Shown one piece after another: positions 11,066 through 56,697 of a stretch of DNA of 56,930 bases. Position numbers and translations under genes: made by a program. The stretch lies in NCBI GenBank assembly GCA_947166015.1, contig CAMVCQ010000006.1, forward strand, positions 1-56,930, read 5' to 3'. Within the stretch, counting starts at the first letter, position 1. Every line of letters starts with the position of its first letter. This DNA comes from an uncultured Lachnospiraceae bacterium (lineage in GTDB: Bacteria; Bacillota; Clostridia; Lachnospirales; Lachnospiraceae). The notes under the pieces are model-generated. The model had not been told where the DNA came from. It saw only the letters and a program-made list of their open reading frames with translations, and did no database searches.

Positions 11066-11471
11066 AATATGATATGTATCGGGGTGGCATTTGTCACCCT
11101 TCTGTCACAACAAATGCCGTTCTATCGTACTTTGGTGGATTTGTCAAGTGTTTTTTTATTGACACTCACATATGAAACCCACATATGCCGTCCATCATGG
11201 GATCTTGAATGAGGGTAAATTAAGCTGTACCGCCATCTAAAGTGTGGAGTCTTCCAACTGTTTTGCTGTCATTTTTTTCACGTTTTCATACTTAATAAAA
11301 GCGGATAATATGCCAATATGATAAAAGCCGCTGATTTCTCAACGGCTTTAAATGTTGCTTTAAAAGAAATCTTTGTCGGGCGTGCCTACTCCCGAATCTC
11401 TTTGTAGCCTTACGGCGTGTGGCGACACGAAGTTTCCACCTCAAAGACATTCTTCTATTATCATATTAACA
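11066..11471. other. Intergenic region with hairpins and an orphan promoter
   Basis: No convincing gene in ~400 bases. Contents: a hairpin at 11087-11119 (GGCATTTGT/ACAAATGCC, 15-nt loop) after the ZIP gene, possibly a terminator though without a U-run. A minus-strand promoter-like pair follows: TTGACA at 11147-11142, 17 bases, TAGAAC at 11124-11119. A GAAA-capped hairpin lies at 11324-11349. A GC-richer stretch at 11370-11450 differs from its AT-rich surroundings and may be the tail of a vanished mobile element; I could not identify it. Confidence 0.35.
11324..11349 (-). terminator. 11-bp hairpin with GAAA tetraloop (probable terminator)
   Basis: Read on the minus strand, AAAGCCGTTGA and TCAGCGGCTTT pair over 11 bp around a GAAA loop, followed by further Ts. 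It lies ~120 bases beyond the stop of the PBECR-like gene and probably ends that transcript. Confidence 0.5.
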
Positions 11472-18223: not shown

Positions 18224-18294
18224 AGCGGGTGATGGGAATCGAACCCACGTGTTCAGCTTGGAAGGCTGACATTCTACCATTGAACTACACCCGC
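18224..18294 (-). tRNA. tRNA-Gly (anticodon TCC)
   Basis: On the minus strand, GCGGGTG pairs with CACCCGC as a 7-bp acceptor. The D arm is GTTC/GAAT with loop AATGGTA. The anticodon arm is TCAGC/GCTGA with loop CTTCCAA, reading TCC. The T arm is GTGGG-TTCGATT-CCCAT. Length is 71 with discriminator U. CCA is not encoded. Confidence 0.97.
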
Positions 18295-40906: not shown

Positions 40907-40988
40907 TTGACAAAAATTTTGAAACATGATATTATGCACATCGAACGAGGCAAAGGCGTCTCAGAGGAAACTCTGGGATGTCTTTGTC
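40907..40988 (+). promoter_or_regulatory. Promoter and 5'-end hairpin leader of asnB (nitrogen leader, copy 1)
   Basis: TTGACA at 40907-40912, 17 bases, TATTAT at 40930-40935. Shortly after the expected start, 40949-40966 pairs with 40971-40988 (18 positions including G-T pairs, GAAA loop), then comes TATTTTTAT. This is terminator-like and sits at the extreme 5' end of the RNA. Nearly the same sequence precedes glnN (48332-48413), where a base change in the right arm improves the pairing. Confidence 0.75.
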
Positions 40989-41015
40989 TATTTTTATACT
41001 TGGAGGTAGAAAAAA

Positions 41016-42716
41016 ATGTGTGCTATACTGACCTATGCACGACCTGATGTGTCTGAAGAATTTTTCGTTGAAATGCTTGGCAGGACACTCTCGCGCGGAC
41101 CGGACATGTCTGACCATATAAAAATGAATGGCGGCTGGATAGGGTTTAACCGTCTGTCTATCATGGGGCCGGCTCCGACCGGGATGCAGCCTTTCACTCA
41201 TCGAGGAAATGCTGTGGTGTGCAATGGTGAAATATATGGATTTGAACCATTGAAGGAGTACCTCGCTTCGCTGGGCTATCCTTTTGAAAGCGGAAGTGAT
41301 TGTGAGATTTTGATGCCTTTGTATGAAACACTTGGAACGGCTATGTTTAGACTGCTCGATGCCGAGTTTGCCTGTGTGATATACGATGGAGAGAGCAATG
41401 AATTTATAGCAGCGAGGGATCCTATCGGAATCAGACCGCTGTACTACGGTTATGATAACGACGGCCATATCATTTTTGCATCGGAACCGAAAAACATGGT
41501 AGGAGTAGCCAAAGAGATCAAGCCGTTTCCGCCGGGACATTTTTACAAAAATGGTGAATTTGTTTCATACCGTGATATGACGACCGGAGGCGTATATGCA
41601 AAGACCGGATGGCAGCCGGGAGTGGCAGGTCAGGGAAGGCATTTGAGCGGTGTCGGTAACGCAAGCAGCCGAAAAACTTCGGGAAGTCTCACGCTACAGG
41701 ATGCTTCCGGAATCAATGATGAGGGCTTGGATGCAATCTGTGAGGGTATCCACGACAGGCTCATAAATGGTATCAAAAAAAGGCTTACAGCGGATCAACC
41801 GATTGGCTTTCTGCTTTCAGGTGGGCTTGACTCGTCGCTTGTTTGCGGAGTGGCTGCAAGGCTTAGCGATACTCCGATAGAGACATTTGCGATCGGTATG
41901 GACATAGATGCGATAGATCTCAAGTATGCAAGGCAGGTTGCTGACTATATACACAGCAATCACCACGAGGTGATCATAACGGCTGATGATGTTGTGGAGT
42001 CGCTCGAGCCCGTGATCAAAGCACTTGCAACCTATGACATAACTACGATCAGAGCATCCATAGGAATGTATCTTTTGTGCAAATGGATCAGGGAAAACAC
42101 GGATATCAAGGTGTTGCTTACGGGAGAGATTTCGGATGAGTTATTCGGTTACAAATACACCGATTTTGCGCCGTCAGCTGACGCTTTTCAGGAAGAATCG
42201 AAAAAAAGGATCAGGGAGCTTCATATGTACGATGTGCTGCGTGCAGACAGGTGTATAAGCGTGAATTCTCTGGAGGCGAGAGTACCGTTCGGAGACCTTG
42301 ACTTTGTGGACTATGTGATGGCGATAGATCCGGAGAAAAAGCTCAACAGCTACGGCATAGGAAAGTATCTTTTGCGTCACGCTTTTGAAAAGGATGCGTT
42401 GATCCCACATGAGATATTGATGAGGGAGAAGGCCGCTTTTTCGGATGCCGTAGGACATTCGCTTCGAGATGATCTGATCGCAGAAGCGGAGAAAAACTAC
42501 ACTGATGAAGCGTATGAAAAAGGCATAGAAAAATACGACCATGCAAAACCATTTACAAAAGAGTCACTTTTCTATCGGGACATTTTTGAAAAATACTATC
42601 CGGGCCAGTCCAAAATGGTTGATGATTTTTGGATGCCGAACAAAAACTGGGCCGGTTGCAATGTAAACGATCCATCTGCCAGAGTTCTGTCAAACTACGG
42701 CGCATCCGGGGAGTAA
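41016..42716 (+). CDS. asnB: Asparagine synthetase (glutamine-hydrolysing)
   Basis: Makes asparagine from aspartate with glutamine as nitrogen donor and ATP; cytoplasmic. 566 aa. The nucleophile Cys2 (MCAILTYARP) follows the start, with the amidotransferase signatures RLSIMGPAPTGMQPF and CNGEIYGF. The synthetase domain has the PP-loop FLLSGGLDSSLVCG (~residue 265) and GEISDELFGYKY. A Gly/Ser-rich, Gln-poor linker at ~200-240 (GVAGQGRHLSGVGNASSRKT) separates the domains and is longer than in the E. coli enzyme. GGAGGT precedes the ATG. The shared leader with glnN suggests nitrogen control. Confidence 0.95.
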   Translation: MCAILTYARPDVSEEFFVEMLGRTLSRGPDMSDHIKMNGGWIGFNRLSIMGPAPTGMQPFTHRGNAVVCNGEIYGFEPLKEYLASLGYPFESGSDCEILMPLYETLGTAMFRLLDAEFACVIYDGESNEFIAARDPIGIRPLYYGYDNDGHIIFASEPKNMVGVAKEIKPFPPGHFYKNGEFVSYRDMTTGGVYAKTGWQPGVAGQGRHLSGVGNASSRKTSGSLTLQDASGINDEGLDAICEGIHDRLINGIKKRLTADQPIGFLLSGGLDSSLVCGVAARLSDTPIETFAIGMDIDAIDLKYARQVADYIHSNHHEVIITADDVVESLEPVIKALATYDITTIRASIGMYLLCKWIRENTDIKVLLTGEISDELFGYKYTDFAPSADAFQEESKKRIRELHMYDVLRADRCISVNSLEARVPFGDLDFVDYVMAIDPEKKLNSYGIGKYLLRHAFEKDALIPHEILMREKAAFSDAVGHSLRDDLIAEAEKNYTDEAYEKGIEKYDHAKPFTKESLFYRDIFEKYYPGQSKMVDDFWMPNKNWAGCNVNDPSARVLSNYGASGE

Positions 42717-42787
42717 GAGGGTTTTTGTCCGAATTTTCCTGCTCCGTCCGAAAAGAAATTCGGAAATCTGAATTATTGAGAAAAAAC

Positions 42788-42822
42788 AGAGCATGATTTG
42801 GGAGATCAAGTCGTGCTCTTTT
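42788..42822 (+). terminator. Terminator of asnB
   Basis: AGAGCATGA pairs with TCGTGCTCT (one G-T pair) around a 14-base loop, followed by TTTTG. Confidence 0.6.
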
Positions 42823-43116
42823 GTTTCAAAAAGATTTTCAGGGTTTTTCTATATTGGGTTGTTATATATAGTAGAGAGGGATGAGATTATTGATTCATGT
42901 TGAGAATTGGTCAACGAAAAATCGTTGTTTTTAGCGAAAGTTTACGAAATTTGAAAAAAATTGTCCACATTTTCGGTTTTTAATTGTTATATATTATAGA
43001 GGGGTAAACAGAGAAGAAAGAAAAAATAGAGAAAATGTAAAAAGGATGTACCCATTTTTGAGATTCGATTGTTTTTATATATAGAGGGAAGCATGCTTTG
43101 TAATTTCGAAAAATGG
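42823..43116 (+). repeat. Degenerate promoter-like direct repeats before the M56/BlaI operon
   Basis: Related units at 42858-42880, 42984-43004 and 43069-43089 share the pattern TTGTT, an A/T run such as ATATATAG, then GAGGG. A fourth at 43134-43155 overlaps the operon promoter. Spacing is irregular (126, 85 and 65 bases). They may be decayed promoter duplications or sites for the BlaI-like repressor. No gene is seen here. Confidence 0.45.
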
Positions 43117-43171
43117 TTGACAAACGTGGTCGATTGTTATAGACTATACACGAGGTCGGTTGTAACCGACC
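43117..43171 (+). promoter_or_regulatory. Promoter and palindromic operator of the M56/BlaI operon
   Basis: TTGACA at 43117-43122, 17 bases, TAGACT at 43140-43145. Just past the expected start site lies an 18-bp palindrome, GGTCGGTTGTAACCGACC (43154-43171), well placed for a repressor such as the BlaI-like protein at 45237. It differs from the classic bla/mec operator, so this is a proposal. Confidence 0.55.
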
Positions 43172-43258
43172 AGACGTAAAATGCTTAAATATAACTTTTT
43201 TGACAGGATTTAATACACGTCAAAGGGGATTGAAAAAAGAGAATCGGAGGGAAGAAAT

Positions 43259-44743
43259 ATGAGTTCAGTGATTGAATGGCTGGCTGACAGTCTTTTTGCA
43301 GGATCGATTGTTATGCTGATAGTTATGTTTATACGCGGAGTGATACTTCGTCGAATGCCAAGACGTTATGCATATTTGTTGTGGGCTGTCGTGGCGGTCC
43401 GTTTGATCTGCCCGGTGTCGATACGCTCACCATTGAGTGTTTTCAGCTATGTTCCGGAAGTCAAGATAGTACAGGAGCACAGTTTGCAAGGAAAAAACAC
43501 AAATCAGATAAGCATGGATTCAAACAGCACCGCCGTATCTGACAAACATCAGAATCAGGAAACTGAACAGGCAGTACCATTCAGCGAAGCGTACCGTATT
43601 GATAGTTCAGAGATGCAGAATTCAGACGTTACTGAACGAGCAGATAATTCAGTTTCATCATACGGTAATACGGGAACTCAGGAACAAATCAAAACGAAGG
43701 AGGCAGAGCAGCATATATCTGTCGAGGAGAATTCCGCAAACGCTCCTTCTGTCACACAGGAAACAGCAAACGATGGGGTAGGAACATCTCCGCTACTGTT
43801 CATCCTTTTCCTCATCTGGATCATCGGTGTCGGGGTATTTTTGTTAAAGAGTGTTATAGACTGCGTAAAACTTCACAAGAGGCTTCGTACTGCGGTGAAA
43901 CTTGAGAAGGGTGTCTATGAGAGTGATCAGATTGATACCCCGTTTGTGAAGGGCATCATCCGCCCTCGTATCTATATCCCGTTTCGACTGACGGAACAGG
44001 AGAGAGCTTGCATCCTAACGCATGAGAAGCATCATATTCGTCGTGGGGATCCGATTTTCAAACTATTTGCGACGGCTTTGCTTGCGATGTTTTGGTTTCA
44101 TCCGTTGGTGTGGGTTTCATATCGCCTGATGGTACGCGATATGGAGATGAGTTGTGATGAGTATGTGCTGACACACGAAACGAACGATATTCGCGCGTCA
44201 TACTCGACGCTGTTGCTTGCTTTTGCTACGAATCGACGTATAATAGACGGCGTGTTATTTTTCGGAGAGAACGATACGAAGCAGCGGGTGAAGCATATCA
44301 TGAGGTTCAGGAAAAGACATGTAGCACTTGGGATTATAGCGATTTTTGTTATTGCGATTAGTACTTGTACGTTGGTAACAGCGGCTGGGACGAGAATACG
44401 GAATCCCTATACTCAAGAGTATAAGCCAGGTCAGGGGAATATCAAGGGAAATGTAGATGTTGAAAAGTATATGAGTATTGATTCGCGTTTTGAGATTGGT
44501 GCGGCAGCAGATGGATATGCCGTATTTAAAGATCCTGATAACGCTTATGATGCATTGGTTGAAAAATACGCAGAAGGTATTTGGCTTATTCAAAAAGAGT
44601 TTAATCTGCTCCCGTTAACAAGAACGAATTACGATAGTTATGGTGTATATGGTTGGCAGACAACGACAGGAACGGAGGAGCAGCAGGAACAGGCAGCATT
44701 TGTTTCCAGTTTTATTGATATATATGAAAACAGCTTTGAATAG
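43259..44743 (+). CDS. M56 (BlaR1/MecR1-type) membrane metallopeptidase, interrupted by a stop codon
   Basis: 494 aa to the TAG at 44741-44743. N-terminal TM helices (residues ~10-30, 38-55) and a polar Gln/Ser/Glu-rich loop (~75-170) come first. A TM helix at ~178-200 leads to the peptidase domain with HEXXH as THEKHHIRRGD (~residue 260) and the downstream Glu in MEMSCDEYVL. The last TM helix is at ~365-385, and an extracellular domain then begins. The same frame continues after the TAG for 145 codons to 45178, so the sensor domain is split. Family role: sense a ligand, then cleave the BlaI-type repressor. Peptidase parts are intact. Confidence 0.85.
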   Translation: MSSVIEWLADSLFAGSIVMLIVMFIRGVILRRMPRRYAYLLWAVVAVRLICPVSIRSPLSVFSYVPEVKIVQEHSLQGKNTNQISMDSNSTAVSDKHQNQETEQAVPFSEAYRIDSSEMQNSDVTERADNSVSSYGNTGTQEQIKTKEAEQHISVEENSANAPSVTQETANDGVGTSPLLFILFLIWIIGVGVFLLKSVIDCVKLHKRLRTAVKLEKGVYESDQIDTPFVKGIIRPRIYIPFRLTEQERACILTHEKHHIRRGDPIFKLFATALLAMFWFHPLVWVSYRLMVRDMEMSCDEYVLTHETNDIRASYSTLLLAFATNRRIIDGVLFFGENDTKQRVKHIMRFRKRHVALGIIAIFVIAISTCTLVTAAGTRIRNPYTQEYKPGQGNIKGNVDVEKYMSIDSRFEIGAAADGYAVFKDPDNAYDALVEKYAEGIWLIQKEFNLLPLTRTNYDSYGVYGWQTTTGTEEQQEQAAFVSSFIDIYENSFE

Positions 44744-45178
44744 AATCTGACGGATTCAGATGATGTGACTGCGAGCGAAGAGGAGGAACAGGTGCCTCCG
44801 CCATCGGAGTATTTTTGCAAAAAAGAGGTAGTTGCTTCATCCGACGGAAATACGGTTTATCTGAATAATCGGTCAAAGGATGCGCTTTACATATATGATG
44901 TTGATAATGATATTTTGACCAAGAAAACATATAAGGATAACCTGACCGACCATATCGATGAGTTCAAGAATTATACCTATACGAAGACTGTAAATAGTGA
45001 TGATGAATACTCGATAAATACACATACAGCTTGGTACTATAATCCCGCCGGCAGTGAAAAAATTTATACAACTATTAAACCCTTTGTAAATAAGCCTATT
45101 AATCTTGCATACCGGGAAGCTAAAGATGTAGAATATGTCGAAGAAGATGAGGATTACGAGTGCATATTTAAGGATTGA
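44744..45178 (+). pseudogene. C-terminal part of the M56 protein, separated by an in-frame TAG
   Basis: In frame with the M56 gene and open from the codon after its TAG to TGA at 45178 (NLTDSDDVTASEEEEQ onward). The stretch is Asp/Glu/Tyr-rich and beta-like (DGNTVYLNNRSKDALYIYD), typical of the extracellular tail of these sensors. An internal GTG at 44765 has GAT/GTG context but no ribosome site, so separate translation is unlikely. Either the stop is a recent nonsense mutation or it is read through. Confidence 0.7.
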
Positions 45179-45236
45179 ATGTGAAGCTGACGAAGTGGTA
45201 TGAGCCGTAAATATAGAAAAGGAGAACAAGAATAAT

Positions 45237-45596
45237 ATGGAACAATTAAAACTTTGCGACAGCGATTATCGTTTTATGTGTGTGGTATGGGAGCACGCGC
45301 CTGTGAACTCCGGCGATCTCGTGAAACTCTGTAACGAGGCTCTCGGATGGAAAAAATCCACTACGTATACAACGATAAAGAAGCTTTCGGAAAAAGGGTA
45401 CATCAAAAATGAAGACGCGATAGTTTCTGTTCTGATTGAGAAGGAGAGAGTCCAGGCGGACGAGTCAAACTACTTTGTTGACAGAACGTTTGAGGGTTCG
45501 CTTCCGGGATTTTTGACAGCGTTTCTTGGCGGGAAAAAGCTGTCAAGTGAAGAGGCGGACGAAATCAGGAAGCTTATTGATGAGTACAGTGACTGA
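45237..45596 (+). CDS. BlaI/MecI/CopY family transcriptional repressor
   Basis: 119 aa winged-helix protein. The family pattern is clear: LCDSDYRFMCVVWEHAPVNSGDL, then WKKSTTYTTIKKLSEKGYI (recognition helix, ~residues 38-56), and a C-terminal dimerisation region (GSLPGFLTAFLGGKKLSSEEADEIRKL split in two). AAAAGGAG precedes the ATG. Such repressors are destroyed on signal from the partner M56 peptidase. Gene order is peptidase first, then repressor. Likely target: the palindrome at 43154-43171. Confidence 0.92.
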   Translation: MEQLKLCDSDYRFMCVVWEHAPVNSGDLVKLCNEALGWKKSTTYTTIKKLSEKGYIKNEDAIVSVLIEKERVQADESNYFVDRTFEGSLPGFLTAFLGGKKLSSEEADEIRKLIDEYSD

Positions 45597-45650
45597 AAGT
45601 TTAGAATATAGAGGATGTTTTGAGACTTCAATATACGGAGGAAACGTAAA

Positions 45651-47672
45651 ATGAGTCGTAATATAAAGATTATTGGAAAAGGAATTCTTGTATGCATAAT
45701 TTGCATCTGTGCATTTTTGATTACAGCACAGATTTCACAAGCGAGAGCTCCAAAGATTTACTGGAGGAGCATCCATCTTGGTCTGAATGCAACTTTTGAT
45801 ATAACGGTTTCATATCTTCCTGAAGGTGCTGCATTGATTTTTAAGAGTAAAAATAAAAAAATTGCGAAAGTTGATTCAAAAGGAAGGGTGACAGGAAAAA
45901 AAGTTGGAAAAACATCTATAATAATCAAGTATAAAAAAGACGGCAAAACATACGATGTCGGCGAATCAAAAGTTAAGGTTCATAATGCGTTTATGAACAA
46001 AGAAGTTGCTGTAGCTATGAAAAAAACAGTGATACAGCTATATGGTAACGAAGGATATTATACATCAAATCCTACAAAAATTGACGATTATGTATATGAT
46101 TTTTACGGTTATACGGGCTGTGATGACTCGTTTTTGGATGAGGTCAATTACAAAAACAAAAAAGCAAGCTATACATATGTTTCGTCTGACAAATCAAAGC
46201 TTAAAATATCAAAAAAAGGGAAGCTTTATTATTCAAAAGGAACGGGAAAAGTCAGAATTTCGATTATTGAAACCTACAAAAAGAAAAAAAGAACGATGGG
46301 TTCTTTTGTTGTGAATCTTGCAAAAACTGTTTGGGACGGAAAGAAAAATGTAAATGGAAGCACGAATCAGGTTTATGACATTTTTAAGCATACACCCTAT
46401 GTCAGCAAAGAAAAAGTTGTTTTTGATAATGATGCCGATAAAAAAGGTGAGGTTACTTTTCTTGAAAACAGCAAAAAAGAATGGAACGGCAGAATCGGGT
46501 TTAACAAAACAGGTAAAACAGGTTGTCGAATTTATGCATATAATTATAAAAAGAAAAAATACGAGTCAAAACCCTTTGCGTGTATCAAATTTAATGTTAA
46601 AAATGTCAAGACCGTATCTGAAATAAAGATACTTGAGGAAAAATCCGAAAAAAGCTTTTCAAAGATAAAATCGTTAAAAAAATCATACAATAACATGGGA
46701 AGCGGCGAGGATGATTATTTTGACGGAATTTGTGATTTCAAATATTATGTTTATCAGGACAGTTATAATTATACCGGCGGATACGGTATAACAAGCTCTG
46801 ACCCTGGGATTGCATCTGTATCGGAGGTTATGTATGAAGAATACGAAGGACTTTTCGATGAAAAAACCGGATATTGCGGGTATTTTTTAATCAAGCCGCA
46901 TAAGCCGGGGTCATGCACGATAACGGTAGAGGGAAACGGCGCAAGTACATCATTTGAATATCACTTTTCGGATTATCCGATTGATGGCGATTTTGATATG
47001 TACTGCGGAACCTATACAAGTAAAGAAAAGCCTGATAAATCAAAGTTCAGATTTGAGATTTCAGATGATAACGCCATGGGATTAACAAATTGTAATTTGG
47101 ATGTCGACATATGGCGTTTAGAAGAGCACAATGATTACGCTGATCCTGAATTGTGGTGCTTTGGCGCTAAGCTTATTGTGAATTGTTACCCGCCTGCAAA
47201 AGGCGGTTTATGCACACTAAGTGTGTTCTATGGTGATGAGGAACTCGGACATTTTGAACTTCCTGTGTATAAGTGGGATTTCACATCAAAACCGCTTCAA
47301 TACGAGGTGGTAGAAAATACGGGAGTTGAGTTTGAACTGACAAACTGTAGTGCGCACTACTTTTCGTCTGATTATAATGATAATCGTATTACTTATAATG
47401 TGAAATTTGACAGAGATAAATCAAAAGCAAAATATGTGTATATCTTTGGAATACGGGATTGGGAATTATCCGAGTACATAGACGAGGCTAAAAAAAGGTT
47501 TGCAAATCCCGACCCGGAGAATTTAAATATGATGCACACATCACCGTACGACATTTCGAATTACTTTTTTGAAAAAAAATACAAAGATGATAACACCGTT
47601 TTCGTGTTCACAGACGAGAACTGCCAATATGTGGGACACGCGGTTGTGAAATTCAAGCTTGACGCGGCATGA
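45651..47672 (+). CDS. Large secreted protein with N-terminal Big2 domain
   Basis: 673 aa; ACGGAGGA precedes the ATG by 9. N-terminal signal or anchor helix (GILVCIICICAFLITAQ). A Big2 domain at ~40-115 (LNATFDITVSYLPEGAALIF, KIAKVDSKGRVTGKKVGKTS). The middle is lysine- and tyrosine-rich with beta strands. A second Ig-like segment sits near 350-430 (GYGITSSDPGIASVSEVMY, KPGSCTITVEGNG). No anchor motif at the C-terminus. Lies 54 bases after the BlaI gene on the same strand, so it may be a target of that regulatory pair. Function likely surface binding; not recognised further. Confidence 0.75.
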   Translation: MSRNIKIIGKGILVCIICICAFLITAQISQARAPKIYWRSIHLGLNATFDITVSYLPEGAALIFKSKNKKIAKVDSKGRVTGKKVGKTSIIIKYKKDGKTYDVGESKVKVHNAFMNKEVAVAMKKTVIQLYGNEGYYTSNPTKIDDYVYDFYGYTGCDDSFLDEVNYKNKKASYTYVSSDKSKLKISKKGKLYYSKGTGKVRISIIETYKKKKRTMGSFVVNLAKTVWDGKKNVNGSTNQVYDIFKHTPYVSKEKVVFDNDADKKGEVTFLENSKKEWNGRIGFNKTGKTGCRIYAYNYKKKKYESKPFACIKFNVKNVKTVSEIKILEEKSEKSFSKIKSLKKSYNNMGSGEDDYFDGICDFKYYVYQDSYNYTGGYGITSSDPGIASVSEVMYEEYEGLFDEKTGYCGYFLIKPHKPGSCTITVEGNGASTSFEYHFSDYPIDGDFDMYCGTYTSKEKPDKSKFRFEISDDNAMGLTNCNLDVDIWRLEEHNDYADPELWCFGAKLIVNCYPPAKGGLCTLSVFYGDEELGHFELPVYKWDFTSKPLQYEVVENTGVEFELTNCSAHYFSSDYNDNRITYNVKFDRDKSKAKYVYIFGIRDWELSEYIDEAKKRFANPDPENLNMMHTSPYDISNYFFEKKYKDDNTVFVFTDENCQYVGHAVVKFKLDAA

Positions 47673-47706
47673 ATAACTCAGTGTATTATAACTGGAGGTG
47701 AGTATA

Positions 47707-48300
47707 ATGAAAAAAAAGCGAAATAGAATTGGTCTCCTACTGCTTTTTGGCGTTTTTGTTTTTATGATTTTAACAGCGTGTGAAAATCAAGAAAAGAAAG
47801 TTTCCAAACAGAATGACGAAAAGGCTGCGTCTTCAGTAAGTGAGGCATCTGTAAACTATCTGGATGGTGAAGAAAAAGCTGTCAGTGACAGAAAAATACC
47901 TGATGATGTCATAAAATACGCAAAAAAACAATATACTGAAATTCTGAAAGTTTGTTACACATCTCCGGATATAAGTGAGTTTCCTGATTTTAACAAGAAC
48001 AAGTTCTCCTTGAAGGATTTCTCGCTGGGAAAAGGATTTAGAATAAAAGATGATACAGGAGAGGACACATACATTTTTCCGGTGAGATGGAAAGGTGTTT
48101 TGGCGGATTTTTATGTGCTCAGTAAATCAGCAGATGGATTTACCGATCAGTATTCCGGATACTTTAATAATGTTGAAACGATTCGTGAAATTGATAAAAA
48201 AGGTATGTTAGATGATGCGATATTTGTAACAAAAAACAAAACATGGTACGCAAAAACGAGCGAGGGACTGGTAAAAATATCAGAAGATATCAACTACTAG
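47707..48300 (+). CDS. Small lipoprotein of unknown function
   Basis: ~197 aa. The start at 47707 follows GGAGGTG by 6 bases; an in-frame GTG at 47698 overlaps that site and is rejected. The lipobox FMILTACENQ puts the lipidated Cys at ~residue 25. A polar linker follows, then a ~130-residue domain (YAKKQYTEILKVCYTSPDI, FPVRWKGVLADFYVLSK) not recognised. It is 34 bases after the Big2 protein gene and probably the last gene of the M56/BlaI operon. It ends just before the glnN promoter. Confidence 0.75.
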   Translation: MKKKRNRIGLLLLFGVFVFMILTACENQEKKVSKQNDEKAASSVSEASVNYLDGEEKAVSDRKIPDDVIKYAKKQYTEILKVCYTSPDISEFPDFNKNKFSLKDFSLGKGFRIKDDTGEDTYIFPVRWKGVLADFYVLSKSADGFTDQYSGYFNNVETIREIDKKGMLDDAIFVTKNKTWYAKTSEGLVKISEDINY

Positions 48301-48331
48301 AAGTATGTCAAGCATTTTTTCAAATTATTTC

Positions 48332-48413
48332 TTGACAAACATTTCAAAACATGATATTATGCACTTCGAATGAGGCAAAGGCGTCTCAGAGGAAACTCTG
48401 GGACGTCTTTGTC
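48332..48413 (+). promoter_or_regulatory. Promoter and 5'-end hairpin leader of glnN (nitrogen leader, copy 2)
   Basis: TTGACA at 48332-48337, 17 bases, TATTAT at 48355-48360. The hairpin is 48374-48391 with 48396-48413 (GAAA loop), then TATTTTTAT. It is nearly identical to the asnB leader from ~20 bases before the -35 through the U-rich tract; the right arm reads GGACGTC here versus GGATGTC there, a pairing-preserving change. Confidence 0.75.
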
Positions 48414-48449
48414 TATTTTTATGTTTATAGAAAAATGGAGGGAAAAACT

Positions 48450-50558
48450 ATGATGGAAGCAAAAAGATTACCTGAGGAGTATGGAAGCCTGGTTTTCGGG
48501 GACAAAGTGATGCGCGAGCGTTTGCCGAAGGATGTATACAAGGCAGTACACAAGACAATAGTAAACGGGACACACCTTGAGCTCGATGTAGCAAACTCAG
48601 TTGCTGCGGCTATGAAAGAATGGGCTATAGAAAACGGTGCAACACACTATACACATTGGTTCCAGCCTATGACAGGGCTTACAGCCGAAAAACACGACAG
48701 CTTTATTTCTCCGGAAGGAGACGGCACAGTCATCATGGAGTTTTCCGGAAAAGAGTTGGTAAAAGGTGAGCCGGATGCGTCGAGCTTCCCGTCGGGAGGA
48801 CTCAGGGCGACATTTGAGGCAAGGGGATATACCGCGTGGGATCCTTCCTCACCGGCGTTCATTAAAGATGGATCATTGTACATACCTACAGCTTTTTGCT
48901 CATACGGAGGAGAAGCGCTTGACAAAAAAACTCCGCTTCTTCGCTCCATGGAGGCTCTTTCCAAGGAAGCTGTAAAGCTTATGCAGCTGCTTGGCTACAA
49001 GGATGTGACAAGAGTAAATACAACTATTGGTTCGGAGCAGGAATACTTCCTGATCGATAAAGATGATTATATGCAAAGAAAAGATCTTTTGTTTACGGGG
49101 CGTACACTTATCGGTGCGCCGGCGACAAAAGGTCAGGAGATGGAGGATCATTATTTCGGCGTGATCAAGCCGAAAGTTTCAGCGTTTATGCACGATCTGG
49201 ATGAAGAGCTCTGGAAGCTCGGGATCCCTGCAAAGACAAAGCATAACGAGGTTGCACCGGCGCAGCATGAGATGGCACCTGTGTTTGAGACAGCCAATGT
49301 TGCAGTCGATCACAACCAGCTGACTATGGAGGTTATGAAAAAGGTTGCCGATAAGCACGGATTCTCCTGCCTGCTTCATGAAAAACCGTTTGAGGGTATC
49401 AACGGTTCCGGTAAGCACAACAACTGGTCGATCTGCACAGACACCGGAATAAACTTACTTGACCCCGGAAAACATCCGGAGGATAATATTCCGTTTTTGG
49501 TTACACTTATTGCAGTGATCGCTGCAGTTGATGAGTACGCTCCGCAGCTTCGCCTGTCTGTCGCTTCCGCAGGAAATGATCACAGACTTGGAGCAAACGA
49601 GGCACCGCCGGCAGTTATTTCTATATTTGTGGGGGATGAGCTTACAAAGGTGCTCGACAGTATCGAGCAGGGCTCTGTATTTAAAGGCGGTGCAAAAGAA
49701 AAAATGGAAATGGGAGCTCAGGTGCTTCCGCATATCACAAAAGATAATACGGATCGTAACCGTACTTCACCATTTGCTTTTACCGGAAACAAATTCGAAT
49801 TCCGTATGCCGGGGTCATCTGTTTCAGTAGCAAATGCAAATATTGTATTAAACACTGCAGTTGCTGAGATTCTTTCAAAAATAACAAAAGAGCTTGAAGG
49901 ACTGAAAGGAGATGAGCTTCAGACAAAGCTGACAGAGTTGTTGAAATCAACTCTTATCGATCACAAAAGAGTCCTGTTTGATGGAAACGGTTACACGGAT
50001 GAGTGGATCGAGGAAGCCGAAAAAAGAGGGCTTGCAAACCTCAAATCACTTCCTGATGCGATGCCTGAGTGGATCAGTGACAAGTCTATCGAGCTTTTTA
50101 CATCACACCAGATATTTACAAAAGAAGAGATAGAATCAAGATACGAGATATTGCTTGAAAACTATACGAAGTCAATCCATATCGAGTCACTCACGATGCA
50201 GGAAATGGTCAGAAAAGACTTGACATCCGGAATCGTAGCGTACGAAATGGATCTGACAAAAGAGATCATCCAGAAGGAAAAAGCCCTTCCGGGAGCAAAA
50301 GCAACACTCGAAGGAAAAATACTAAAAACGCTCGATGAGGCGTCGACACAGATATCTGAAAAGCTCGAGTCTCTCAAGGCAAAGACCGAGGAGGCAGAGG
50401 GCATAGAGGATATCCAGAAGCAGGCTGAGTTCTATGAGAGAACAGTGCTCAAGGAAATGAATGATTTGCGTGTCTATGCTGATCAGGCAGAGGCATTGAT
50501 CCCGGATGAGTATCTAAGCTACCCGACCTATGGACAGCTGTTGTTCTCGCTTAGATAA
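48450..50558 (+). CDS. glnN: Glutamine synthetase type III
   Basis: Makes glutamine from glutamate, ammonia and ATP; a large dodecameric cytoplasmic enzyme. The start at 48450 follows GGAGGG by 7 bases; earlier in-frame codons fall inside the leader hairpin. ~702 aa, the normal size of GSIII and far longer than GSI. Seen: FSGKELVKGEPDASSFPSGG split near residue 85-105, the GSIII block GINGSGKHNNWSICTDTG, the glutamate/ATP-site SVASAGNDHRLGANEAPPA, and NRTSPFAFTGNKFEFRMPGS. With gltB it forms the GS-GOGAT ammonia-assimilation cycle; gltB starts 51 bases downstream. Confidence 0.96.
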   Translation: MMEAKRLPEEYGSLVFGDKVMRERLPKDVYKAVHKTIVNGTHLELDVANSVAAAMKEWAIENGATHYTHWFQPMTGLTAEKHDSFISPEGDGTVIMEFSGKELVKGEPDASSFPSGGLRATFEARGYTAWDPSSPAFIKDGSLYIPTAFCSYGGEALDKKTPLLRSMEALSKEAVKLMQLLGYKDVTRVNTTIGSEQEYFLIDKDDYMQRKDLLFTGRTLIGAPATKGQEMEDHYFGVIKPKVSAFMHDLDEELWKLGIPAKTKHNEVAPAQHEMAPVFETANVAVDHNQLTMEVMKKVADKHGFSCLLHEKPFEGINGSGKHNNWSICTDTGINLLDPGKHPEDNIPFLVTLIAVIAAVDEYAPQLRLSVASAGNDHRLGANEAPPAVISIFVGDELTKVLDSIEQGSVFKGGAKEKMEMGAQVLPHITKDNTDRNRTSPFAFTGNKFEFRMPGSSVSVANANIVLNTAVAEILSKITKELEGLKGDELQTKLTELLKSTLIDHKRVLFDGNGYTDEWIEEAEKRGLANLKSLPDAMPEWISDKSIELFTSHQIFTKEEIESRYEILLENYTKSIHIESLTMQEMVRKDLTSGIVAYEMDLTKEIIQKEKALPGAKATLEGKILKTLDEASTQISEKLESLKAKTEEAEGIEDIQKQAEFYERTVLKEMNDLRVYADQAEALIPDEYLSYPTYGQLLFSLR

Positions 50559-50609: not shown

Positions 50610-53600
50610 GTGAATAATAACAGCGATGAATTCTGGTTTCGCGAACACGACGCCTGCGGCATAGGAGCCGTAGTAAACATCAACGGAAAACCTGATAACA
50701 AAGTCCTCGACGATGCACTCAGCATTGTTGAAAAGCTCGAGCACCGCGCCGGAAAAGACGCCTCCGGAAGAGTCGGAGACGGAGTGGGAATCCTCACTCA
50801 GATATCACATGGATTTTTCAAAAAAGAAGCAAAAAAATCAGGCATAAAGCTAGGAAATGCAGGCGACTACGGAGTGGGTATGTTTTTCCTCCCGACAGAC
50901 CCCATGAAGCGTATGTTTGCAAAAAGGATGCTTGAGGTTATCACAGAAAAATCAGGCCTTAACTTCCTCGGCTGGCGCGAGGTGGGTATACACCCTGAGA
51001 TTCTCGGAGAGACAGCGGTTTCATGTATGCCGCACATCAGCCAGTGCTTCATCGAAAAACCTGAAGGAGTAAAAAAAGGCCTTGATTTTGAGCGCAAGCT
51101 TTTCTGCCTCAGAAGGGAGTACGAGCAGAGTTCGGAGGATACATATATCTGTTCACTTTCATCAAGGACTATTGTATACAAGGGGATGTTTTTGGTTGGA
51201 CAGCTGAGGAAGTTTTATGACGACCTTCTTTCACCTGATTACGAGACAGCTATAGCTCTTGTCCACAGTAGGTTCTCGACCAACACGACGCCGTCCTGGC
51301 AGCGAGCTCATCCGTACAGAATGATAGCGCACAACGGCGAGATCAATACTATCCGCGGTAATTCAGACCGTATGCTTGCCAGAGAGGAAACTATGTCGTC
51401 GGAGGTCCTCGAAGAGGATCTGGCAAAGGTGTATCCGGTGATCGCGGCCTCGGGATCTGATTCTGCGATGCTTGACAACACCTTGGAATTTTTGTATATG
51501 AACGGTATGGATCTGCCTCTTGCAATGATGATAACAGTGCCCGAGCCCTGGAAACATGATGATGCGATGAAAAAAGAGAAGAGGGATTTTTATCATTATT
51601 ATGCAACCATGATGGAGCCATGGGACGGACCTGCCGCAATTCTATTTACTGACGGGGAGCTTTTCGGAGCGACGCTTGACAGAAACGGACTTCGCCCGTC
51701 GAGATACTATGTTACCAAAGACGGAAGGCTTATACTTTCGTCTGAGGTTGGTGTGCTTGAAATCCCGGAGGAAAACATTGAGAAAAAATCAAGGTTGTCA
51801 CCGGGGCATATGCTTGTGGTTGATACAAAAAAAGGAAAGATACTATCAGACAAAGAATGCAAGGAAAAATACACCAATTCAAAACCATACGGAGAGTGGC
51901 TTGACAGGCATCTTTTGCATATCGACAAGCTCTCTATACCGAACAAAAAAATACCTACACATGACCAGGAGACACGCGATAAACTCTACAAAGTATTTGG
52001 GTATTCGTACGAGGATGTCAAAAACCAGATCCTTCCGATGGCAACAACGGGAGTAGAGCCTACAGTCTCCATGGGAAATGATGTTCCGCTTGCCATGATG
52101 AGCAAACATCATCAGTTATTATTCTGTTATTTTAAACAGCTTTTTGCACAGGTTACAAACCCGCCGATCGATTCGCTCAGAGAAAAAATAGTGACCGATA
52201 CAACGGTTTACATCGGCTCTGACGGTGACCTTTTATGCGAAAAAAGTGAAAACTGTCGCGTGCTCGAGGTCGACAATCCAATCCTTACCGGAGTCGATCT
52301 GATGAAGATAGAAGCACTCGATCAGGAGGGATTTCGCACTGCAAAAATTTCGTTATTATTCTACAAAAATACACCGGTCGCAAGAGCTCTTGATCAGCTA
52401 AACATATCTGTTGACAGAGCGATCGCAGACGGGGCTGATATCATCACACTTACCGACAGAGGTGTTGATGAAAACCATATGCCTATCCCGTCGTTGCTTG
52501 CCGTATCATCTGTCGAGCAGCATCTGGTTCGTACCAAAAAAAGAACCGCCGTATCGCTTATATTGGAGAGCGGCGAGCCGCGAGATGTACACCAGATAGC
52601 CTGTCTTTTGGGATATGGTGTCCGCGCTATAAACCCATATCTTGCGCACGAGTGTATCGCCGAGATGATTGACAACGGTATGCTCGACAAGGACTATCAC
52701 ACTGCCATAGCAGACTACAACAAAGCTCTTTTAAACGGAGTTGTAAAAATAGCTGCAAAAATGGGTATATCGACATTGCAGTCTTATCAGAGTGCGCGCA
52801 TTTTTGAAGCGATCGGACTCTCAAAAGAACTGATTGATACTTACTTTACCGGTACTGTAAGCCGCGCCGGAGGAATAGGAATAAAAGAGATCGGAGAGGA
52901 TATAGAGCTTCGTCACAACAACGCTTTTGATCCTCTTGGACTTCCTACCGATACGACGCCTGATTCGATAGGATTTCACAACCTGCGAAGCGGAAAGGAC
53001 AAAGAAGACCATCTCTATACGCCCAAAACCATCGTCACACTTCAAAGAGCCGTGCGTGAGGGTAACTATGAGATATTCAAAGAGTATGCCGGTATGGTCG
53101 ATGATGAGGACAGACCGCATACATTGAGGGCGCTGCTTAGCTTTGTGCCGGCAGACAAGCCGCTTAAGCTTGATGAGGTCGAGAGTGAGGATGAGATCGT
53201 GAAGCGTTTCCAGACGGGAGCGATGTCCTATGGCTCGCTCTCAAAGGAAGCACATGAAACGCTTGCGACAGCGATGAACCGTCTTGGCGGCAAATCAAAT
53301 ACCGGCGAGGGCGGAGAGGATATCGCCCGTTTCGGAACTGAGAGAAACAGTGCTGTCAAACAGGTTGCGTCCGGAAGGTTTGGAGTGACCGGCAGATACT
53401 TAAAAAGTGCCAAAGAAATCCAGATAAAAATGGCCCAGGGTGCAAAGCCCGGTGAGGGCGGACATCTCCCCGGCAAAAAGGTTTACCCTTGGGTTGCGGG
53501 TACCAGGTTTTCAACACCCGGTGTTTCGCTTATATCACCGCCGCCACACCACGATATATACTCGATCGAGGATCTGGCGCAGCTTATATATGATCTGAAA

Positions 53601-55118
53601 AATGCCAATAAAGACGCCCGTATCTCTGTCAAGCTCGTATCCGAGGCAGGAGTCGGAACAATAGCATCGGGAGTTGCAAAAGCCGGTGCAGAGGTGATAC
53701 TTATCTCGGGTTATGATGGAGGAACAGGAGCAGCGCCGTCATCCTCCGTACACCACGCCGGACTTCCGTGGGAGCTTGGTATATCAGAAGCCCACAGATG
53801 CCTGATAGAGAATGGACTCAGAAGCAGAGTTGTTCTTGAGACAGACGGAAAGCTTATGACCGGTCGTGATGTTGCGATAGCAGCGCTTCTCGGTGCTGAG
53901 GAGTTCGGATTTGCGACAGCACCGCTTGTAAGCATGGGCTGTATGATGATGCGTGTTTGCTCCAAGGATACCTGTCCTGTAGGTATCGCAACACAAAACG
54001 AAGAGCTTAGGAAACGATTTGCAGGAAAGCCTGAGCACGTGATGAATTTCATGCACTTTGTCGCAAGGCAGCTTCGTGAGATAATGGCTGAGATGGGATT
54101 CCATACAGTTGATGAGATGATCGGTCGTACCGACAGGTTAGAAACCAGACTTGATGGAAGGAAAGACCGTGCAGCTCTCGCAGATCTGTCAAGGATATTA
54201 AATACTGATGTAGCCGACAATCATGTCATTTTTAACAAAAAAGATGTATATGATTTTCAGCTTGAAAAAACAGCTGATGCATCTGTACTTATCCCTGCTT
54301 ATGAAAAAATGGGCAAGAAAAAGCACATTGATATCGATGTGAAAATATCAAGTACAGACAGGAGCTTTGGAACGCTTCTCGGAAGCTGCATAACAGGCGA
54401 TCACGGTGATTCGCTTGAGGATGATACTGTGACAGTACACGCAGTCGGAGGAGGCGGACAGTCGTTTGGAGCATATATCCCGAAAGGCCTTACGCTTAGG
54501 CTTAGCGGGGATGCCAATGACGGCTTTGGAAAAGGCTTGTCCGGAGGAAAGCTCATAGTGACTCCGCCCGAGGAGGCGACCTACTCCGCAAACGAAAACA
54601 TAATCATAGGAAATGTGGCACTCTACGGTGCGACATCAGGGAAAGCGTATGTAAACGGTATAGCAGGCGAGAGATTCTGTGTCAGAAACTCCGGTGCAAC
54701 AGCGGTAGCTGAAGGCTGCGGAGATCACGGTCTCGAGTATATGACCGGAGGACGCGCCGTGATACTCGGAATGACAGGCAAAAACTTCGCAGCCGGAATG
54801 AGCGGCGGTATAGCCTATGTGCTTGATACGGACCACACACTGTATCTGCGAATGAACAAAGATATGGCATCGCTTCAGGAGGTCACTGAAAAATACGATA
54901 TCATCGAGCTGAAAAACATACTTGAGGATTATGTCAAAGAAACCGGATCAGAGCTTGGAAAAAATGTTCTTGATAACTTTGATGATTACCTCAAGGATTT
55001 CAAAAAAATAGTGCCAAATGATTATCAAAAAATGCTCACTGCGATAAGTCATTATGAGGAGCAGGGAGTAGACCCGAAGAGTGCTGTTTATGAGGCTTTC
55101 AAAGAGGTTGCGATGTGA
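50610..55118 (+). CDS. gltB: Glutamate synthase large subunit
   Basis: Transfers the glutamine amide to 2-oxoglutarate to give two glutamates. 1502 aa, full length. GTG start with GAGGTG 7 bases upstream. The nucleophile Cys in HDACGIGAV (residue 16) would be exposed by removal of a short propeptide. Domains in order: glutaminase (residues ~16-400), central domain, FMN-binding synthase domain (GAKPGEGGHLPGKKV and ISGYDGGTGAAPSS), the 3Fe-4S cluster (CMMMRVCSKDTCPVG), and the C-terminal GXGXG beta-helix (NVALYGATSGKAYVNGIAG). Partners with GltD encoded 106 bases downstream. Confidence 0.97.
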   Translation: MNNNSDEFWFREHDACGIGAVVNINGKPDNKVLDDALSIVEKLEHRAGKDASGRVGDGVGILTQISHGFFKKEAKKSGIKLGNAGDYGVGMFFLPTDPMKRMFAKRMLEVITEKSGLNFLGWREVGIHPEILGETAVSCMPHISQCFIEKPEGVKKGLDFERKLFCLRREYEQSSEDTYICSLSSRTIVYKGMFLVGQLRKFYDDLLSPDYETAIALVHSRFSTNTTPSWQRAHPYRMIAHNGEINTIRGNSDRMLAREETMSSEVLEEDLAKVYPVIAASGSDSAMLDNTLEFLYMNGMDLPLAMMITVPEPWKHDDAMKKEKRDFYHYYATMMEPWDGPAAILFTDGELFGATLDRNGLRPSRYYVTKDGRLILSSEVGVLEIPEENIEKKSRLSPGHMLVVDTKKGKILSDKECKEKYTNSKPYGEWLDRHLLHIDKLSIPNKKIPTHDQETRDKLYKVFGYSYEDVKNQILPMATTGVEPTVSMGNDVPLAMMSKHHQLLFCYFKQLFAQVTNPPIDSLREKIVTDTTVYIGSDGDLLCEKSENCRVLEVDNPILTGVDLMKIEALDQEGFRTAKISLLFYKNTPVARALDQLNISVDRAIADGADIITLTDRGVDENHMPIPSLLAVSSVEQHLVRTKKRTAVSLILESGEPRDVHQIACLLGYGVRAINPYLAHECIAEMIDNGMLDKDYHTAIADYNKALLNGVVKIAAKMGISTLQSYQSARIFEAIGLSKELIDTYFTGTVSRAGGIGIKEIGEDIELRHNNAFDPLGLPTDTTPDSIGFHNLRSGKDKEDHLYTPKTIVTLQRAVREGNYEIFKEYAGMVDDEDRPHTLRALLSFVPADKPLKLDEVESEDEIVKRFQTGAMSYGSLSKEAHETLATAMNRLGGKSNTGEGGEDIARFGTERNSAVKQVASGRFGVTGRYLKSAKEIQIKMAQGAKPGEGGHLPGKKVYPWVAGTRFSTPGVSLISPPPHHDIYSIEDLAQLIYDLKNANKDARISVKLVSEAGVGTIASGVAKAGAEVILISGYDGGTGAAPSSSVHHAGLPWELGISEAHRCLIENGLRSRVVLETDGKLMTGRDVAIAALLGAEEFGFATAPLVSMGCMMMRVCSKDTCPVGIATQNEELRKRFAGKPEHVMNFMHFVARQLREIMAEMGFHTVDEMIGRTDRLETRLDGRKDRAALADLSRILNTDVADNHVIFNKKDVYDFQLEKTADASVLIPAYEKMGKKKHIDIDVKISSTDRSFGTLLGSCITGDHGDSLEDDTVTVHAVGGGGQSFGAYIPKGLTLRLSGDANDGFGKGLSGGKLIVTPPEEATYSANENIIIGNVALYGATSGKAYVNGIAGERFCVRNSGATAVAEGCGDHGLEYMTGGRAVILGMTGKNFAAGMSGGIAYVLDTDHTLYLRMNKDMASLQEVTEKYDIIELKNILEDYVKETGSELGKNVLDNFDDYLKDFKKIVPNDYQKMLTAISHYEEQGVDPKSAVYEAFKEVAM

Positions 55119-55224: not shown

Positions 55225-56697
55225 ATGGGAAAAATAGGCGGATTTTTGGAATACGAAAGACAGGAAAACCCTGAAGTATCACCGTTAGAGCGGATCAAAA
55301 GCTTTGATGAATTTCATACCTTTGCGGATGAAGATGAAAGGAAGTGCCAGGCGGCCAGATGTATGGACTGCGGAGTTCCGTTTTGTCAGTCGGCGATGTC
55401 GCTTGGCGGAATGGTCGTGGGATGTCCTCTTCACAACCTGATACCGGAGTGGAATGATGCCGTATATAACGGTCAGTATACTCACGCATATACAAGGCTT
55501 ACAAAAACAAATCCCTTTCCGGAGTTTACAGGAAGGGTTTGTCCGGCGTTGTGTGAAAAAGCGTGTATAAACGGTCAGGACGGACAGTCCGTAACAGTTC
55601 ATGACAATGAATTATTTATCATAGAAACAGCGTTTAAAAACGGAGATGTCAAACCCCGTGTTCCGTCAAAAAGAAGCGGCAAAAAAATAGCTGTTATAGG
55701 AAGCGGGCCGTCGGGACTAAGCGTCGCAGACACGCTCAATAAGCGTGGTCACGAGGTGACTGTTTTTGAAAGGGATGATCATATCGGAGGACTTTTGATG
55801 TATGGTATCCCGAACATGAAATTAGACAAAAAAGTGATCGACAGAAGACAAAAAATAATGGAAGACGAGGGGGTTATTTTTAAACTAAATTCTGATATCG
55901 GAAAAGACATCGACGCTGCTCAGATCAAAAAAGAATTTGATGCCGTTGTGATGTGCTGTGGCGCAAAACAGGCGAGAGCGCTCGATGCCAAAGGTATCGA
56001 GGGAGCAAAAGGGGTATACTTTGCGGTTGACTTTTTAACTGAGGTTACCAAAGGAGTGATCTCCGGCGGTGTGTCTCCTAAAGTCGCATCTCAGGTAAAA
56101 GGCAAAAATGTAGTCGTTGTCGGCGGAGGTGATACCGGTAACGACTGCATAGGAACCGCGATCAGGCTTGGCGCAAAATCGGTGACAGCATTAGAGATGA
56201 TGCCAAAACCACCGGTAGAAAGACAGCAGAACAACCCCTGGCCGCAGTGGCCGAAAACTCTCCGTACGGACTACGGACACGCAGAGTCAAAGGCTGTTTA
56301 CGGTGACGACCCAAGAGTTTTTGAAACCACCGTTGAGGAAGTAATCTCGGATTCAAAAGGGCACATCAAAGCCATAAAAACTGTCAAGGTTGCGTTTAAG
56401 GATGGGAAGCTTACCAAGCAAAAAGGCTCCGAAAAAGAGCTCCCCTGCGACCTGCTTTTGATAGCAGCAGGATTTACGGGAGCTCAGGACTACCTGCCAA
56501 AGGCGATGAAAACGCCGCTTGGCGCGAGAAATACCGTTGCCACTCTTGAGGACGATATCTACCGCACTGAGGTGGATGGTGTTTTCGCTGCGGGTGATAT
56601 GCGACGCGGCCAGTCGCTCGTTGTCTGGGCCATCGCCGAGGGGAAATCTTGCGCAGCCTCCGTTGACCGCTATCTCATGGGTTACTCGCCACTTTAA
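55225..56697 (+). CDS. gltD: Glutamate synthase small subunit
   Basis: 490 aa. Supplies electrons from NAD(P)H to GltB. The N-terminal ferredoxin-like part has the Cys motifs CMDCGVPFC and CPALCEKAC for 4Fe-4S clusters. An FAD-binding motif ([19 protein letters not shown]) is at ~residue 155 and a nucleotide-binding motif ([20 protein letters not shown]) at ~295. The C-terminal [19 protein letters not shown] is the usual FAD-contact block. AAAGGAG precedes the ATG. The 106-base gap from gltB holds TTTGGAA/TTCCAAA arms but no clear terminator, so the two are taken as one operon. Confidence 0.96.

Follow-up and report, generated by a model that had tools for sequence, protein, structure and literature searches.

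In a 56,930-nucleotide stretch of DNA from an uncultured Lachnospiraceae bacterium (hereafter the window), asnB and glnN are each preceded by nearly the same promoter and hairpin, which raises the question of what such a leader does in front of both genes. Alignment of the two leaders (40907-40988 and 48332-48413) gave 94 identical bases out of 101, and both hairpins folded far better than shuffled sequences (z of -9.1 and -9.4; 0 of 200 shuffles equally good), as expected from the initial annotation, which had described the pair as near-identical promoter and hairpin leaders. It had also pointed to a T-to-C difference in one arm that leaves pairing intact; this difference lies in the 3′ arm and the pair is indeed maintained (G-U or G-C). 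Both copies have the order promoter, hairpin, T-rich tract, ribosome-binding site and gene (Table 1). The promoter positions are consensus calls, with +1 predicted at ~40942 for the asnB leader and ~48367 for the glnN leader; the stem begins 11-12 bases after the -10 element, not the ~14 bases originally given. The promoter architecture of the asnB leader recurs in 37 non-identical loci.

Table 1. Coordinates and basis of assignment of the features discussed in the text (window positions unless another source is named).
Feature	Location	Strand	Details	Basis
asnB-leader promoter, sigma-70-type	40907..40935	+	TTGACA 40907-40912, 17-base spacer, TATTAT 40930-40935	sequence
asnB-leader putative antiterminator mini-hairpin	40947..40962	+	GAGGC [AAAGGC] GUCUC; A1/G4 hexaloop 40952-40957	fold -6.1 kcal/mol
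asnB-leader intrinsic terminator	40948..40997	+	19-bp stem with GAAA loop (40948-40989), then U-rich tract	folding
asnB, asparagine synthase (glutamine amidotransferase type)	41016..42716	+		Pfam
glnN-leader promoter	48332..48360	+	TTGACA 48332-48337, 17-base spacer, TATTAT 48355-48360	sequence
glnN-leader putative antiterminator mini-hairpin	48371..48388	+	UGAGGC [AAAGGC] GUCUCA; hexaloop 48377-48382	fold -7.0 kcal/mol
glnN-leader intrinsic terminator	48373..48423	+	19-bp hairpin with GAAA loop 48373-48414, then U-rich tract	folding
glnN, type III glutamine synthetase	48453..50558	+		Pfam GSIII_N
gltB, glutamate synthase large subunit	50610..55118	+		Pfam
gltD-like, glutamate synthase small subunit	55225..56697	+		by look and gene order in same-genus genome G002
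glnA, directly 5′ of the ANTAR gene	L205:5018-6223, G000:C8	-	degenerate active-site motifs	alignment

To a tolerance of at most 3 mismatches, a 42-base core of the leader occurs at exactly 2 sites in the 2.1-Mb assembly (reversed control, 0), in agreement with the two copies first noted, but a covariance model built on the terminator (R1) revealed a third, more diverged leader on another contig (G000:C13:7957-8018), 5′ of a fused ammonium transporter/P-II gene. Searched against the whole genome at E<=10, R1 returned these three leaders and nothing more besides antisense readings of the two window sites. The family therefore has three members in this genome, before asnB, glnN(-gltB-gltD) and amt, with gltB probably belonging to the glnN transcription unit. 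A search of the leaders against Rfam gave no family at the gathering score, the asnB copy yielding nothing but sub-threshold matches at E<=10, and a plasmid search with the asnB leader gave a single weak and unrelated match. Elsewhere in the window, Rfam identified a skipping-rope RNA, a structured RNA (11368-11449, minus strand; 52.6 bits, above the gathering score), and a tRNA gene (18224-18294, minus strand; 73.2 bits).

The 5′ arm of the terminator is nearly self-complementary and can hence form an alternative, smaller hairpin, so that the leader has two mutually exclusive folds. When the growing transcript was folded from the assumed start, this mini-hairpin was optimal at lengths from 24 to ~33 nt, after which the terminator prevailed. 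The mini-hairpin is an extra feature, of which a plain terminator has no need. Its conservation was examined in an alignment (A2) of 40 hand-picked sequences, 38 from fetched loci and the two window copies. In A2 the 20-bp terminator is 91.9% paired and the 6-bp mini-hairpin helix 95.4% paired, compared with 43-64% when the latter is slid, and the 6-bp helix shows 17 double-change cells against a shuffled mean of 4.3. The inner three pairs of the mini-hairpin are uninformative in the 38 of these 40 sequences where the search pattern had fixed them; its outer positions pair in 37/37, 35/37 and 34/37 non-identical promoter-adjacent loci, and the next position in 16/37, as expected by chance. Because each helix is paired and covaries in A2, we conclude that two mutually exclusive helices are present and that both are conserved. 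The leader thus contains an intrinsic terminator and, overlapping its 5′ arm, a hexaloop hairpin that prevents it from forming.

ANTAR proteins are described as recognizing six-base loops with an A at position 1 and a G at position 4, and one of the target hairpins shares sequence with the terminator's 5′ arm (PMC3369931). The loop of the published eut 13-mer, AGCAANGRRGCUY, is of the same kind as that of the nitrogen leader; both window copies (AAAGGC) satisfy the A1/G4 rule, and the loop of the amt leader reads AAGGGC. To avoid circularity, the loci fetched up to that point, from L003 up, were scanned blind for a promoter-like site followed by structured RNA, and the best mini-hairpin with a loop of 3-9 bases was taken irrespective of the loop letters. 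A stem of at least 6 bp was found in 121 of 212 segments, with a hexaloop as the sole winner in 78. These promoter-proximal hexaloops carry A1 in 75/78 and G4 in 76/78 cases, while position 3 is free (A 58, G 14, T 5, C 1); when all segments containing the search pattern were removed, 43 hexaloops were left, with A1 in 40 and G4 in 41. The 74 leaders having both A1 and G4 display 13 different stem pairs, including a second large stem class, AUGAGC [AAAGGC] GUUCAU, that is unmatched by the search-pattern core GGCAAAGRCGTC. In 75 of the 78 hexaloop leaders A1 lies 13-17 bases beyond the -10 element, which places the start of the stem at ~+1 to +5 (~+5 to +6 in the window copies). A further A1/G4 hexaloop downstream was present in 6/74 leaders, compared with 2-16/74 for other loop signatures, and is therefore not enriched; nor does the nitrogen leader contain the second hexaloop hairpin, 5-12 nt away, that characterizes dual-hexaloop targets. 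An upstream hairpin is absent because the stem starts so close to the predicted transcription start that no space remains for one. At several loci (L064, L101, L117, L118, L139, L032, L071 and L073) a single promoter is followed by two consecutive hexaloop-terminator elements before the gene is reached.

The genes behind the leader were then considered. Loci had been fetched by hairpin pattern, model match or ANTAR gene, and the identity of the downstream gene was not a criterion. A downstream frame is present in 73 of the 74 A1/G4 leaders and is related to nitrogen or glutamine, by Pfam, in 72 of these: 28 GSIII (glnN), 23 GATase_2 (glutamate synthase, mostly of the split form), 6 of the asnB/purF type, 6 glutamate dehydrogenase (gdh), 4 purC, 3 amt, 1 pyrG and 1 glnA. 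The sole exception is a spurious 62-aa frame. These counts provide good comparative support for the attenuation tied to nitrogen that had been suggested initially, and no specific support for the transcript-stability control suggested alongside it; amt and gltB, named at the same time as places to look for the leader, both proved to be targets (amt in the window genome, glutamate synthase genes in Clostridia loci). Weaker model matches lie 5′ of glnA-ANTAR (L235, L248) and of NAD synthase (L234), and pattern matches lie 5′ of an amino-acid permease (L090) and of a peptidase C26/GATase protein (L033). Other model matches stand before genes that have no evident connection with nitrogen, namely HAMP proteins (L247, L263) and PPDK-like genes (L039, L215, L221); in the latter three the leader-like match stands 5′ of a large PPDK_N-domain protein (Pfam on L039 and L221). 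Among the matches listed in the collection scan, those in Proteobacteria and other phyla were apparent chance matches in coding sequence and were dropped by eye, having neither a promoter nor a nitrogen gene; antisense readings of the palindrome were likewise dropped by eye. Seventy-eight loci were kept among the matches listed, 50 of which entered the test for ANTAR presence, and many of the genomes compared are MAGs. From these sequence comparisons, the ammonia-assimilation genes of many gut and rumen Clostridia appear to start with a small RNA switch.

The initial annotation had raised ANTAR control and set it aside because the dual-hairpin motif was not evident. The dual hairpin is indeed absent, but the terminator's 5′ arm conceals one ANTAR-type hexaloop, which was overlooked because only one hairpin is present, and a search of the window genome for ANTAR domains, as had been proposed, found one such gene (G000:C8:36435-36590; Pfam E 1.4e-15), directly 3′ of glnA and with carB further 5′. 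An ANTAR protein is encoded in 48 of the 50 leader-bearing genomes tested; the other two genomes may be incomplete. Since ANTAR genes are common across the order (166/246 genomes), their mere presence is modest evidence, and linkage is stronger. At first sight the association looked weak, with ANTAR in 24/30 genomes having an R1 match of at least 36 bits and in 142/216 others. The R1 matches in six of the former (G217, G165, G257, G234, G297 and G280) look like terminators matched by chance, lacking both a promoter-adjacent hexaloop and a nitrogen gene; once these were dropped, a pruning made by eye and after the fact, ANTAR was present in 22/24. In 12 of these 22 genomes (G237, G251, G228, G275, G183, G293, G309, G324, G352, G315, G243 and G088) leader and ANTAR gene lie at most 10 kb apart, and a glnA homologue stands beside the ANTAR gene in 36 of 43 ANTAR loci examined. 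An ANTAR gene adjoining glnA, with GS/GOGAT genes as targets, is the arrangement of a NitR-type regulon. The positions at which EutV contacts RNA were mapped by eye through an alignment of 39 ANTAR proteins. Three are changed in this clade (Y164 to H in 36/39, R168 to E in 25/39, R175 to C or G in 35/39), whereas M172 (38/39) and a basic residue at 143 (36/39) and at 147 (33/39) are retained. Because the second hexaloop is absent and the EutV contact positions differ, we do not file the leader in the dual-hexaloop family; its sequence suggests that it functions as a single-hexaloop ANTAR antiterminator.

The receiver domain offers a hint as to how the signal might arrive. In the window genome the phospho-acceptor position is occupied by Asn, so that the phospho-Asp of a phosphorylated two-component response regulator is missing; Asp is found in 5 of the 39 aligned proteins (L014, L015, L022, L166 and L167), and all five of these loci are without a glnA match in the fetched stretch. 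The GlnA of the window genome aligns to solved glutamine synthetases and has lost the NRS-LIR stretch, whose Arg residues presumably have a functional role; it scores 251 bits, compared with a GlnA equivalog cut-off of 429. Five other GlnA proteins (L018, L019, L021, L023 and L025) have lost the HHE motif, and most of the remainder keep both motifs. Given a receiver without phospho-Asp and a degenerate GlnA partner, the GlnA-like protein encoded alongside, and not a kinase, is the probable route of the nitrogen signal. AmiR, likewise an ANTAR protein, is controlled by its partner AmiC rather than by phosphorylation. By analogy with AmiC/AmiR, and with NasS/NasT so far as published descriptions of these systems go, the GlnA-like sensor may hold and release the ANTAR protein.

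A same-genus genome (G002) helps to explain why the window carries two copies. There a single leader heads asnB-glnN-gltB-gltD-carA-carB-glnA-ANTAR (gltD and carA named by look and order), and asnB and glnN are adjacent; in the window genome they are ~5.6 kb apart (42717-48331), with a leader on each. The intervening stretch, absent from the G002 cluster, holds frames that by eye resemble a BlaR/M56-type peptidase and a BlaI-type repressor. The carA-carB-glnA-ANTAR part lies on contig C8, whose end breaks inside a carA-like frame, and contigs C6 and C8 presumably adjoin. The window copies match the G002 leader at 63-66/100 bases, below their mutual 94/101, and we read this as duplication of the leader upon splitting of the cluster. 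Such a recent event is likely to be the origin of the second window copy and covers its near-identity to the first. That it is the whole story, the likeness having no functional meaning, we find scarcely credible: it is contradicted by the occurrence of the leader in many species (among the matches listed) and by the diverged amt copy.

The two structures and their covariation, the A1/G4 rule, the gene set and the ANTAR association, all obtained by computation, point with good confidence to nitrogen-responsive attenuators that are read by a NitR-like ANTAR protein encoded after glnA and that represent a single-hexaloop variant. ANTAR binding, antitermination, the direction of control and sensing by GlnA are predicted parts of this model. 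RNA polymerase would start at or just before the hairpin, and the first ~24 nt would fold into the 5-6-bp mini-hairpin. With the ANTAR protein on the loop, the 5′ arm would be held, no terminator would form, and asnB, glnN-gltB-gltD and amt would be transcribed; with the protein unbound, the 3′ arm would displace the mini-hairpin, the 19-bp terminator would form and transcription would stop after ~55 nt. It is unlikely that the binding partner of the mini-hairpin is some other protein or a small ligand and that the likeness of the hairpin to an ANTAR site is coincidental. The altered RNA-contact residues, the two leader genomes without ANTAR and the fact that ANTAR-loop binding is a prediction would all be compatible with another binder, but such a binder does not account for a published ANTAR loop rule that holds on 13 different stems, nor for the physical linkage of the ANTAR gene to the leader. 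As a long inverted repeat after a promoter, which in several genomes scores with the model on both strands, the leader could also be a DNA operator for a repressor, with no RNA switch involved; we consider this very improbable, since the polarity of the T-tract, the mutually exclusive helices with their separate covariation and a loop that stays constant while the stems vary fit recognition as RNA. Equally improbable is an unregulated hairpin serving only to stabilize the transcript or, through constitutive termination, to lower expression: a strong hairpin so close to the 5′ end would suit either role, but the second fold, the loop rule, the gene set and the ANTAR linkage would be left unexplained.

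Regulation by a NitR-like ANTAR protein would be of a type that is already known, and the novelty lies in the RNA. In Clostridium saccharobutylicum, the ANTAR protein NitR is described as inducing GS/GOGAT genes by antitermination on nitrogen limitation (PMC6316151, citing Stutz et al. 2007); an ANTAR protein, a clostridial host and GS/GOGAT genes are shared with the present system, a likeness drawn from that description. In C. thermocellum, the ANTAR gene Clo1313_2030 is reported to be co-expressed with the Clo1313_2030-2036 GOGAT/glnA cluster, for which the authors suggest antitermination (PMC4676874); the likeness drawn from that account is at the level of genes. As characterized in the published accounts, EutV and its eut targets share with the nitrogen leader the A1/G4 hexaloop, the conserved closing pairs and the overlap with the 5′ arm of the terminator, but the nitrogen leader lacks the upstream P1 hairpin and places its stem near the transcription start, and its regulator has a receiver without phospho-Asp. 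Eut, nas and ami targets have an upstream recruitment hairpin, unlike the nitrogen leader. For EutV, both hexaloops are reported to be required for antitermination (PMC3369931, PMC8934654). For Walshe et al., the smallest site that is bound is a single hexaloop, the upstream hexaloop serving recruitment; in their model an ANTAR dimer must meet two hexaloops in turn, and single-hexaloop sites are expected only where there is no racing polymerase (PMC8934654). Within the open-licence literature, which leaves subscription papers such as Stutz 2007 outside, we found no prior description of the nitrogen leader or of single-hexaloop ANTAR antiterminators.

More tentatively, it is possible that these leaders belong to a widespread clostridial switch in which nitrogen is sensed by a GlnA-like protein (degenerate in certain lineages) that in turn governs a non-phosphorylated ANTAR protein, one hexaloop at the start site being sufficient and a second, recruiting hairpin dispensable. 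With one hexaloop, at the start site and overlapping the terminator, the leader family offers a natural test of the two-hexaloop model, and as an apparently stripped-down ANTAR target it tests how small an RNA can suffice for such a regulator. For Lachnospiraceae and Oscillospiraceae it also provides a candidate system of nitrogen control, in which an RNA-binding regulator may have GlnA as its sensor.
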